NCBI GenBank assembly: GCA_006503475.1
Contig: RSEH01000213.1
Location: forward strand, 21,227 to 85,226
Length of the DNA: 64,000 nt
Origin: Stentor roeselii
Taxonomy: Eukaryota > Ciliophora > Heterotrichea > Heterotrichida > Stentoridae
Direction of reading: 5' to 3'
Under the pieces are notes generated by a model. It was not told the DNA's origin, did not search any database, and was given only the letters and a program-made list of their open reading frames with translations. Below, in pieces: positions 14,128-21,961 of this stretch. Both the position numbers and the translations under genes were made by a program. Positions within the stretch are counted from its first letter, which is position 1. Every line of letters begins with the position of its first letter.

Positions 14128-16173
14128 TTAATTAACTAAAACAGAATCGAGGGCAAACTTGGCTAATTCGTTGAATAGATCATCATTATTCATTACTTCT
14201 TTTCTTTCAATTTCTTCACTTTTGTTTTTCAAGTCTTTTTCCGGAATAAAAGACTCGATTGCTCTTCTCAAATTTTCTCTATTGAACCTTAGCTCAGCCA
14301 TTGATATCTCCCATTTCGAATCTTTCTTCATTTCAAAAAAAACTACCCTGATAATAATACTATTAAATTGCTCACTTGAATTTATTATATCATCTACATA
14401 CTTTTTTTCTAATATTTGATTTAAGGCCTGATTAATGTTATGATCCTTAGTGTTGTTATCTTTCTTTTTAACTTGAATAATAAAAACATTATCAAGATCG
14501 AGAGAAGGCCATATTAAAATGTCTATTTTTTTGTTATCTGAGGTCCAGTACTCTAATTCTCCTAAATATGATTTATCCTTAAAACATGCATAAAGCATGG
14601 ATAGAAAAAAAAACTCTGGATATTCTTCTTTTTTTAACTTTTTAAGAATTCTTTCTTGAAATATTTTTATAAACAGTTTTGGATCTTCAAATTCATTTTG
14701 ATCAATAGTTGCATTTAACAGAAAAAGCTCTTTTTCACTAAACCAAGCCTTAACTATGCTAGTAAAAAATTGATACCTCACCTCATTATTAGGAATCCTG
14801 TATTTTTTTTTATTATCTGATGAAGTTATATATCCTGCATCTAACATAAGTGTCAATAATGCTTCTTGGTCAGTATAAGTCTTATCAAGAATTGTTGAAT
14901 CAGTAGGTGTGAATTCAACTTCTCCTGATTTAATTAAAGTCTCAATTTTATTTTCTATCTTTTTAGTGTTTTTACTTTGTTCTTTATTTTTTCTATGCTC
15001 TTTGATTGCATCTGTTATGAAAGTCTCATTACCTGAGTTTATCCAATAATATCCATAACCCTTTTTGCCATATGCCACACGATCCAGACAATTCATAACA
15101 GACCAAGGATTATAAATTAAAGTATTTTGTATATTGTAACCATTATAGCATCGAGATAATTTTTGTTTTATTTCAGCTTTATCCAGCCTAAGCTTTGAAA
15201 TTCTCACAACATGATTGACCAGCTGGTCAACTTCGGCTTCAGTGAACCCATAATGTTCATTAGTTCTATTATTAGATGAATTCAGAACTGAATCGTGGTA
15301 GATTTTGTTGATACCTGAAAAGATATCATCATTGGCAATCCTAGAAACTCCAGTAAACACTGACAATTGCACTTGCTCAGTGTTTTTGTTTAGAAAAGAA
15401 AAAGTTTCTCTGTAGAGATTACAAGCATAGTCATATAAATGTGGACTCTCTGATTTTATATGAACTAATGTTTTATCGTACTCATCTATAAGAAGTACAA
15501 CTTTTCTGTTATGATGCTCATTCAAAGATTCTATAAGTATCATTAGATGATCTTTAATTTCTTTTCTCGAGAAATTTTTACCAAGTTTATCAATATACTC
15601 CTCCATTATATTTTTCAAATGATTTGATACTTTTGGAGAATTTAATAAGTATTTATGTAAAAACATTCCTTGTCTAAGTGTACTTATAAATGTTGAGTCA
15701 ACTCCATCTTGAGACATCTTAATAACATTATCAAAAGTAAAAGATACCACAGGTAATGTTCCTTCTAAATCAATTATTTTTGTAATCTCTTTCTTTCCTG
15801 TGATTGGATTTTTAGGTAAAATTTCAGATCCGATCAGTAATTTCGCAAAATTTTTCTTTTTTTCATCATCTTCGATAATATTTCCTTCTGGTGAGAATTT
15901 CGGTTGGAAAAAACTCTGAAGCATATTCAAATTCAGTGATTTGCCCCACCTCCTTGGCCTAGTTACGATCACAGTGTCACGTCTGATCAAATCCTTTATT
16001 AGCAGTGATTTATCGACTCTAAGAATACCTCCAGTTAAGACCCTATGAAACTCCTTGAACTCTGCTACAATATCTGTAGGTGCATAAGAGTAAGTTTTAT
16101 CTGTAGAGATCTTTCTGAAGTTTTTGGTAAAGAAGATTGCTTTCCTAGTATTTCTAGTTAGCATATTAAACAT
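14128..16173 (-). CDS. AAA-ATPase-like / PD-(D/E)XK nuclease family protein
   Basis: A 681-residue protein of the family seen mainly in bacteria (AAA-ATPase_like with a C-terminal PDDEXK_9 domain, formerly DUF1703). Family motifs in order: ILRVDKSLLIKDLI (about 53-66); Walker A RPRRWGKS (about 73-80); Walker B VVLLIDEYDK (about 225); FTGVSRI and the GFTEAEVDQL segment (about 285-325); CYNGYN and NPWSVMN; YGYYWINSG; then the nuclease core KIDILI and IIQVKKK (about 535-555) and ALNQILEKKY. The ATPase motifs are intact; the nuclease motif has Gln where the family usually has Glu. The first 26 residues are basic with no acidic residue, which could be a mitochondrial presequence (inference). The gene is more AT-rich than its neighbours and has long noncoding flanks, which suggests acquisition by transfer. 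The cellular role of the family is not established. Confidence 0.88.
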   Translation of the reverse strand: MFNMLTRNTRKAIFFTKNFRKISTDKTYSYAPTDIVAEFKEFHRVLTGGILRVDKSLLIKDLIRRDTVIVTRPRRWGKSLNLNMLQSFFQPKFSPEGNIIEDDEKKKNFAKLLIGSEILPKNPITGKKEITKIIDLEGTLPVVSFTFDNVIKMSQDGVDSTFISTLRQGMFLHKYLLNSPKVSNHLKNIMEEYIDKLGKNFSRKEIKDHLMILIESLNEHHNRKVVLLIDEYDKTLVHIKSESPHLYDYACNLYRETFSFLNKNTEQVQLSVFTGVSRIANDDIFSGINKIYHDSVLNSSNNRTNEHYGFTEAEVDQLVNHVVRISKLRLDKAEIKQKLSRCYNGYNIQNTLIYNPWSVMNCLDRVAYGKKGYGYYWINSGNETFITDAIKEHRKNKEQSKNTKKIENKIETLIKSGEVEFTPTDSTILDKTYTDQEALLTLMLDAGYITSSDNKKKYRIPNNEVRYQFFTSIVKAWFSEKELFLLNATIDQNEFEDPKLFIKIFQERILKKLKKEEYPEFFFLSMLYACFKDKSYLGELEYWTSDNKKIDILIWPSLDLDNVFIIQVKKKDNNTKDHNINQALNQILEKKYVDDIINSSEQFNSIIIRVVFFEMKKDSKWEISMAELRFNRENLRRAIESFIPEKDLKNKSEEIERKEVMNNDDLFNELAKFALDSVLVN

Positions 16174-16878
16174 TATAAAGATATCTGAAATGATAAAATT
16201 ATATTTTTCTATTGTATGCTAATTAATCTTACTTAAAAGTTCTTTAAACAAGCAACTCTAGTGAAAAATTTTGATTAAGTATTAATTCATGCTAAAGTAT
16301 TTTAAGTCTTCTAGATTTTTGAATAGAGACTAAAAAAGTTTTTATATATATTTAGTGTTAGTTCTAATTAAAAAACTTATTCTTTGCAGATGCTTCAAAT
16401 TAAAATCATTTATCTATTTATTTTGAGTTGTATTGAAGGATTTAATGCTATCAGGTATATCAAATTCTTAATTTTTAGATTGAAAAAAGTGTAAAGTTTA
16501 TCATTTCTATCAGAAATTTTTTTTTATTTTGTCTAATATCTGTTCCATAGTTAATTATATTCAAAGAATTGTTGCTTATATATGATAATAAGCAGTCAAT
16601 TTTCGAAAAAGATGATCATCAGAGTATTTCTTACAAAATAGCAAATCTAAGGCAAGTCATCACCTGTAAATGCTTTATATCTGATTAATTCTTAATAATA
16701 CAAACACCAAATCTTAATAAAAATCACTTCATCCCTAATCAAAATCACTCTAAAATAAATATCTATACCTTAAATTCTTATCTTTTCTTTAAAGATCTTA
16801 TCTCTATCAAAAAATCTCAAAACCCAAACTCTCCAACTAAAATCAACTAACCTGAAATATCTAAAATTTAACACTAAC
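16174..16878. other. 705-bp AT-rich intergenic region
   Basis: No supported gene. It lies upstream of the AAA-ATPase-like gene and downstream of the SAPS gene. One short plus-strand frame at 16390-16494 (34 codons) begins with a signal-peptide-like MLQIKIIYLFILSCIEGFNA, but no continuation through a 15-16 nt intron was found; it may be a gene remnant or chance. A 7-bp-arm inverted repeat (16573-16579 with 16588-16594) and a GATGATCATC palindrome (16611-16620) are also present. Confidence 0.65.
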
Positions 16879-20497: not shown

Positions 20498-21961
20498 CTA
20501 ATTAGTTTTAGTCCCTATCACGTTTAATACCTTGCCAGGCTCAACTTTTATTTTAACTACCTGTGCAATAGGACTTCTGCACATATGACACTGTCTTTTT
20601 TGTTTCATAAGTAGATTAGCACAATTATGACAAATTCCTCCATGTCCACATTCAAGAAAAACCGAATTACACTCTTCACTCCAACAGATGCTACATTTTT
20701 TATCCACAAATGACAAGTCAGCTGAATGTCGATATGCAAGTGAATTTTCCTTTGGCAAGCTGCTAAGACTTCGAAAGTGCACATTTTCCCTTGTTATATT
20801 TTCTTTTACATCATGACTCATAGTTCGAACGACCTTCGGTGCCTGCTTCGGAGAAGCAGGTTGAAAATAAGTACTACTCAATCTAACCAAAGCCCTTGGA
20901 GGTAATTTGATAGCTCTGATGATTTTTTTCATATGCAGTGCTTGAGAAGGAGGGAGTGGAAGAGGTCCACTATTACTGAGACTCGGTATCGAAATATGTC
21001 CATCTTCAAAGAAAAACGACCTCCACCACTTCTGCAGATGAAAACGGAGTAAAAAGGTGATAAAAACAAAAATAGTCAAATAAGAGATTCCATAAGCTGC
21101 TATTTTGTCGTATTTCTCTTGAACCATATCTAGTCCAAATAGAAACAAAACCAAACAAGCGCCACTTGACGTGTAAAAAGACCAAATCGATGAAAAGACT
21201 TCAGTTTTCGAAGGGTCTGAATAGTAATAAGAAAAAATCGACATAATCATCAGCAAAAAGGTCCCAATGCTTAAAACTGATAAACATGCAAGAACCACCC
21301 ACAAGGGCCAAAGGGCTGAAGCCCAGCTCCAATTAGCTAAATCATCGATTTTAATAGAAACACTTACAGTCAATACGACTTTAAACAGCTTTGCTATCGA
21401 TTGGCACTAAGTGAATCTTACGATTAATGAGAAAAGCTGACATTGGTTCGAAGTTCGCTTTTTTATCAGGAAGTCTGCAAGGAAGTCAAAGAAAAGTGGA
21501 AAAGAAGAAAATATAAAGTAAGCTCTGTAGTAATAAATGATTCCAAGACTCATGAAGAATAAAAAGTTTGAGAAAGAACTGATCAATGACTTGATTTCTG
21601 TGATTTTATCGATTTCACCTTCTTGATAATTTGAAATACTCTTCAGGCGAATTGAGTGAAGGAACAACGACCGGATTTCAATGAGCAGGACAGGAATCAA
21701 ACAAATGAGAAGCTCAAAGTGAAGAATGAACTGCAGCTGCAGTAAGACTAAAGAAACAAGGACTGTAATTCCGTATTCCAAGTATTTCGAAATCTCGAAA
21801 GAAATCACTTCAGTGTCGAACTCTTCGTCATACTCAGTGATCATCCTTTCAGCGCCCATCATCTGTCGATTCGTGTTGATTTCTTCTTCATGTTCTTCTT
21901 GAATTTCGTAAATCGGTTGCATTTCATTCATATTAGTATTGTTCTGGTCAGCATCGACCAT
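20498..21961 (-). CDS. Multi-span membrane protein with C-terminal RING finger, split by a 15-nt intron
   Basis: Exon 1 is 21961-21422 and exon 2 is 21406-20498, 482 residues. The N terminus is acidic and disordered (about 60 residues). About five or six hydrophobic spans follow (for example LEYGITVLVSLVLLQLQF, FLFFMSLGIIYYYRAYFIF, WVVLACLSVLSIGTFLLMIM and YLTIFVFITFLL). A basic loop leads to a C3HC4 RING near the C terminus: CSICWSE, ECGHGGICHNCANLL and CHMC. The layout (TMEM185-like spans plus RING) is a common ciliate membrane E3 ligase type. The intron falls between the spans and joins ...FSLI to CQSIAKLF. Start is the ATG at 21959-21961. It diverges from the next plus gene with a 104-base gap. 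Confidence 0.85.
21407..21421 (-). other. 15-nt spliceosomal intron
   Basis: On the minus strand it reads GTAAGATTCACTTAG, phase 0. Its TAG is an in-frame stop if retained. Removal joins two hydrophobic-rich frames into one membrane-RING protein. Confidence 0.85.

Follow-up and report, generated by a model that had tools for sequence, protein, structure and literature searches.

A divergent family of bacterial-type DUF1703 ATPase/nuclease genes with a mitochondrial presequence-like leader in the ciliate Stentor roeselii

How a bacterial-type gene comes to lie in the nuclear genome of a ciliate, and what its product might do there, is the question raised by a locus on contig RSEH01000213.1 of the Stentor roeselii assembly GCA_006503475.1. 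The window, that is, the whole 64,000-nucleotide stretch analyzed here (positions 21,227 to 85,226 of the contig, forward strand), carries on its minus strand an AAA-ATPase_like/PDDEXK_9 (DUF1703) open reading frame (ORF) of 681 amino acids at 14128..16173, which is one copy of a large family. With slightly more confidence than doubt, we lean toward an old acquisition of a bacterial DUF1703 gene that was amplified in the ciliate and whose products would be imported into mitochondria as STAND-like ATPase switches with a nuclease tail.

The window copy encodes a bacterial-type DUF1703 protein, made of a STAND/archaeal-ATPase-like P-loop switch (residues ~40 to 478) and a C-terminal PD-(D/E)XK nuclease (residues ~484 to 645). 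An earlier note, made by a model from the sequence, had described a complete, intact-looking member of this family, and both parts of that description hold. There is no internal stop in the 681 codons under the standard code, and the open frame is not due to chance; it stayed open in 0 of 2,000 simulations of random substitution at 0.1 per site. Pfam places the AAA-ATPase_like domain (PF09820) at residues 40 to 285 (15319..16056, minus strand; E = 1.2e-29, 104 bits against a gathering score of 26.1), an assignment shared by the fold and by the motifs, with RPRRWGKS as Walker A (residues 72 to 80) and DEYD as Walker B (residues 230 to 233). The nuclease domain, at residues 520 to 609 (14347..14616, minus strand), matches PF08011 (PDDEXK_9) at 22.2 bits, which is below the curated gathering score of 25.5, and a restriction-endonuclease-like fold is present in this part of the protein. 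Its catalytic D-E-K triad is incomplete: E567Q leaves D551-Q567-K569, where most copies have the glutamate. Residues about 31 to 478 match the fold of STAND NTPases, a comparison that takes in CED-4, NLRs, and Avs, with the archaeal proteins SSO1545 and PABY2304 as extended relatives, and they share with these an NTPase core followed by a helical region. Unlike STAND NTPases, the window copy displayed no sensor-repeat domain in the fold comparison, and its C terminus is occupied by the nuclease. PADLOC models matched the window copy with 0 families at an E value of ≤1, and NCBIfam likewise gave no match at that limit. A sequence search of the PDB gave no relative, the sole row having an E value of 0.28.

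The window protein has at least 74 matches in its own genome (44.4 Mb in 522 contigs). From 40 fetched genome regions and the window, 28 long open frames were obtained, window copy included, that span the ATPase to the nuclease region; two of them (L018 and L019) lack the N-terminal part, the frame being broken upstream, one (L027) runs off a contig end, and one (L012) stops early at the C terminus. The remaining matches are fragments or contain stops. Copies are clustered on contigs C144, C158, C379, and C476, and dispersed single copies occur too. PF09820 is matched at an E value of ≤0.01 in 26 of 26 copies and PF08011 in 11 of 26. The closest family member to the window copy lies on C221, with 62% identity and a single stop, while identity to the window copy is 28 to 54% in the 25 other rows of the family alignment (A1); a family this divergent rules out a single recent transfer of this one gene. 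The earlier note had also remarked that the gene is AT-richer than its neighbors, and its G+C content (GC), 0.298, and GC at third codon positions (GC3), 0.254, are indeed the lowest among the 30 window ORFs of at least 150 amino acids (next-lowest values, 0.336 and 0.307). Because low GC is common to the whole family (mean of 0.301 in 44 family-matching ORFs versus 0.374 in 49 other ORFs), this AT-richness is no sign of recent arrival.

Two observations were made at family loci on other contigs. Near both ends of contig C509 lies an inverted identical stretch of 2,148 bp (L033:3854-6001 and L044:52-2199), each beside a broken family copy, which may reflect either inverted duplication of the contig ends or an artefact of assembly. 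Also, a non-family stretch is 88% identical between contigs C158 and C33 (L017:1-746 and L039:6-722) and represents either a dispersed repeat or a duplicated neighbor gene.

Relatives were sought in collections of prokaryotes, viruses, and plasmids, with this genome as the sole eukaryote, and it is partly a consequence of this scope that the relatives found are bacterial or viral. The family is patchy among eukaryotes. A scan of prokaryotic genomes with two patterns built from the ciliate ATPase motifs, which under-samples bacterial diversity and leans toward ciliate-like motifs, gave at least 557 relatives among 591 pattern matches, of which 80 were kept. The closest among the matches listed come from an alphaproteobacterial metagenome-assembled genome (31 to 32% identity), Tepidibacter, and Rickettsia endosymbionts, and in the order to which one Rickettsia genome belongs, 32 of 216 genomes have a match. 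In two members of that order (L168 and L176), frames of 1,986 and 2,165 amino acids enclose this ATPase/nuclease region. Matches were also found in 49 of 72,556 plasmid records, including those of Simkania, Cardinium, and Megaera, in 27 of 50,697 phage records (human faecal contigs, among the 20 of these 27 matches listed), and at 8 loci in viral contigs.

Several of the best matches listed being from Rickettsia endosymbionts, the host might direct AAA-ATPase-like proteins at its own intracellular bacteria, with the leader serving a symbiont-facing or dual location. Insects offer a parallel. In the available portions of the reports, AAA-ATPase-like genes that came from bacteria are described as numerous in whiteflies (17 of 31 new candidates), with transfers cited for psyllid and coccoid lineages and a possible role toward endosymbionts (PMC11800479), and such genes are strongly raised in the bacteriomes of two psyllids (PMC10558732). 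These genes resemble the ciliate family in being a bacterial-type family with several copies in a eukaryotic nuclear genome; the likeness is one of description, not of sequence or domains, the hosts are insects, and a mitochondrial leader is not mentioned in those portions. The conserved leader of the ciliate copies fits a mitochondrial presequence, and these data point to no symbiont of this ciliate. We therefore regard a role toward symbionts as unlikely.

Phylogenetic analysis places the ciliate copies together. In an unrooted tree of 144 rows, from which eight same-gene rows and rows of <170 bits or spanning <430 model positions were left out, the 28 copies lie on one side of a branch with a support of 100 and a stem of 1.39, next to four proteins of the order Rickettsiales (support of 80). 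A careful tree of 62 rows, also unrooted, included 12 ciliate copies and, despite bit scores under the limit, brought back three rows, one each from Simkania, Cardinium, and Rickettsiales; the ciliate copies again form one group (100/99), now with plasmid sequences of Simkania and Cardinium as neighbors (99/99), the branches being very long. Because the neighbors of the ciliate clade change with the rows included, no donor is claimed. The long stem could itself hold the root, as would suit an old eukaryotic gene inherited vertically, with no recent bacterial source, and amplified in this ciliate, and the collections searched would not have held its eukaryotic relatives. Nevertheless, the family is widespread among the bacteria searched, which makes vertical descent a shade less likely again than a role toward symbionts, and a bacterial origin of the ciliate family is plausible.

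The leader of the window copy, residues 1 to 24 (16102..16173, minus strand), has the composition, amphipathicity, and cleavage-like end (RKIST) of a mitochondrial presequence, with no aspartate or glutamate and six lysines or arginines among its first 22 residues. Most copies share a leader consensus, M-(F/I/Y)-x-W-L-x-R-N ... A-I-R-K-R-F-S-T. Presequences are cleaved by a rule in which an arginine stands two or three residues before the cut, with F-S near it. A leader test (≤1 acidic and ≥3 basic residues at positions 1 to 22, plus a hydrophobic moment of ≥0.35), whose thresholds were set after the leaders had been seen and were not calibrated on known mitochondrial proteins of this genome, was passed by 32 of 38 family N termini. 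Of the other ORFs, 1 of 49 passed, and of the homologues from bacteria and viral contigs, 5 of 112; a single gene present on three contigs accounts for three of the five, and a Megaera plasmid protein for another. Under stricter criteria applied earlier, with truncated ORFs counted as well, 22 of 44 passed, versus 1 of 46. Moreover, among the 80 prokaryotic loci kept from the at least 557, 57 match the query only from residue 41 on, and 75 only from residue 30 on. In 111 ORFs from bacteria and viral contigs, the median spacing between the first methionine and the DK motif is 27 residues. The spacing is 47 to 58 residues in 22 of the 28 ciliate copies; by the same motif search, two of the other six are without the DK-motif region, and four fall outside this range. 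Together, these features suggest a cleaved mitochondrial presequence and, by extension, a probable mitochondrial location.

Alternatively, the leader may be an extension of the N terminus that helps the protein to assemble or to bind DNA. The prediction of targeting derives from sequence, and several Rickettsia relatives have extensions of similar length that are without leader features. However, the structure model gives residues 1 to 33 a predicted local distance difference test score (pLDDT) of <50, and about 30 over residues 1 to 30, and few acidic residues occur in the leader. Conservation also drops after the cleavage-like site: in 165 divergent pairs (38 to 50% identical), identity is 55% in the leader and 19% in the next 16 residues. 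In 15 close pairs, the ratio of nonsynonymous to synonymous change (omega) in the leader is 1.13, a value that rests on few synonymous changes. On balance, a nontargeting extension is improbable, marginally more so than vertical descent.

Family copies also have common noncoding sequence upstream. A promoter-like block stands directly before the ATG (16174..16217, minus strand), where the upstream regions of 18 copies align as GGTAGAAAAATATA-TTT ... TCAGACATCTTTATA, ending at the ATG. A strict pattern of this block has 13 matches genome-wide, each at a family copy, and a reversed control has 0. By coordinates, 10 of the 13 sites abut a family match that starts at residue 1, while the other three are at the expected starts of copies matched from residues 51, 51, and 64, as a reading of their N termini indicated. 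None of the 13 belongs to the window copy, whose block departs from that pattern. Farther out, about 92 to 183 bp upstream of the ATG, a conserved noncoding block (16265..16356, minus strand) is 72 to 79% identical by blastn to upstream regions of several family copies. Synonymous change between sister copies is uneven too: the leader codons (16102-16173) have little of it (rank 9 of 657 windows), and the region around residues 193 to 264 (15382-15597) has much, a pattern that hints at either constraint on the 5' end as DNA or sequence exchange between copies.

The two halves of the protein have fared differently. D551, E567, and K569 are all retained in 13 of the 28 ciliate copies, and the triad is lost in 15, whereas it is complete in 45 of the 46 other rows of the second alignment (A2; 44 from genomes and two from viral contigs), the remaining row being cut short. 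In contrast, the Walker A lysine persists in all 26 rows that cover it, and 22 of 28 copies have DEYD as Walker B, so the ATPase is better conserved than the nuclease in the ciliate lineage. Across 30 copy pairs of >60% identity, the window copy being in none, omega (NG86 method) is 0.27 to 0.72, indicating that purifying selection prevails, though loosely, between close copies. The most variable segment, residues 145 to 216 (15526..15741, minus strand), was found in nine sister pairs, again with the window copy in none; its nonsynonymous divergence (pN) is 0.25 to 0.27, compared to 0.07 to 0.22 in other 24-codon blocks. Lying inside the ATPase region before Walker B, this segment is a candidate for specificity or an interface.

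A selfish family, spread as a nuclease-encoding element that the host merely tolerates, would fit the high copy number, the many broken copies, the clusters on few contigs with dispersed singles, and the relatives in plasmid and phage records, yet triad loss with Walker A retention runs opposite to the needs of an element driven by its nuclease, and we hold this to be the least probable of the alternatives. The mobile function envisaged in the earlier note finds no footing at the locus either. Repeats flanking the window copy are weak, AT-rich matches, and flank homology between family copies ends at varying limits, as in segmental duplication, which rules out a mobile element with defined ends.

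We thus return to old acquisition with mitochondrial import. In this scenario, a single ancestral gene would have passed from a bacterium, plausibly a symbiont living inside the cell, into the ciliate lineage, where it would have been fitted with a presequence for mitochondrial targeting and with a promoter of the host. Segmental duplication would have amplified it to the 28 or so long open copies and the many broken ones. The protein may be imported into the mitochondrion, with the leader removed near residue 24; once there, the binding of ATP would set the switch and govern how the nuclease acts on nucleic acid in the organelle. Copies with an intact triad would act as nucleases on mitochondrial nucleic acid, while the window copy, its nuclease weakened or dead through E567Q, may serve mainly as an ATPase and as a partner or decoy for active copies. 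Mitochondrial import, the bacterial origin, nucleic acid as the substrate, and a regulatory role for inactive copies are what we infer here. Two points weigh against this explanation. First, 17 of the 111 bacterial and viral-contig ORFs, several from Rickettsia, also have at least 42 residues before the DK motif, and the similar length of the Rickettsia extensions weakens the claim that the extension is new. Second, given the prokaryote, virus, and plasmid collections, the unrooted trees, and the long ciliate stem, nesting inside bacteria is no more than a possibility. The horizontal acquisition proposed in the earlier note is plausible in view of the many bacterial relatives and the single ciliate clade.

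A more specific version is a diversifying, NLR-like repertoire inside mitochondria, in which bacterial-derived ATPase switches with active and inactivated nucleases would recognize foreign or rogue mitochondrial DNA, with residues 145 to 216 giving specificity. Its targets would be selfish mitochondrial DNA, invading bacteria, or their plasmids. We offer this proposal as speculative and rather unlikely.

Comparison with known systems helps to define what is new. Bacterial DUF1703 proteins (PF09820 plus PF08011) include those of Cardinium cCpun, for which the available part of one report describes at least 25 recombining paralogues as putative secreted nucleases (PMC6387759), and a Walker A of the RPRR.GKS type is described for the family in the accessible text of another (PMC1913061). 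The ciliate family is like these in its two-domain order, its large divergent expansion of paralogues, and its Walker A; it differs in being nuclear encoded, in its presequence-like leader and promoter-like block, and in the loss of the triad in over half of its long copies. As far as the available sections go, PF09820 is tied to RADAR, PARIS, and Old-tin defence in a review table (PMC10952713), and cifB proteins pair PD-(D/E)XK with AAA-ATPase-like domains (PMC12445526). The Wolbachia CinB/CidB nuclease domains are a fold match at 13 to 15% identity. In the best-ranked open-licence literature, as judged by titles and abstract openings, no report of the family in a ciliate was found, and term searches of the Blepharisma genome paper (PMC9942806) and of a Euplotes survey of horizontal gene transfer (PMC13071891) returned neither "AAA-ATPase" nor "PDDEXK." The entry of such a family into a eukaryote and its later expansion there have precedents. 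Four things are new here: the host is a ciliate, most copies bear a mitochondrial-type leader, family copies have a promoter-like block in common, and the nuclease has lapsed while the ATPase persists.

The window copy adjoins genes for a RINGv/FHA protein and a SAPS-domain protein (Pfam) and so sits among ordinary eukaryotic genes, with flanking gaps of about 615 and 705 bp that are among the larger ones between listed window ORFs. A dynein heavy chain is encoded in the window as well, and its nearest PDB entry is cytoplasmic dynein 2 heavy chain 1. All three standard stop codons are used among window ORFs; this usage and the dynein both suit a ciliate, though neither singles one out. Introns of 15 nucleotides, which would have been a mark of Stentor, gave no clear length peak within the 64 kb. 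Elsewhere in the genome, a GroEL-like stretch with two stops (C108:9174-10733) occurs besides a full GroEL-type ORF on C19, and it may be a pseudogene, a diverged copy, or an intron-bearing copy.

The DUF1703 family is common in bacteria and expanded in some intracellular symbionts. A ciliate genome with dozens of copies would provide a eukaryotic setting for learning what DUF1703 proteins do, and one in which a bacterial conflict-type protein has possibly been put to work in an organelle.
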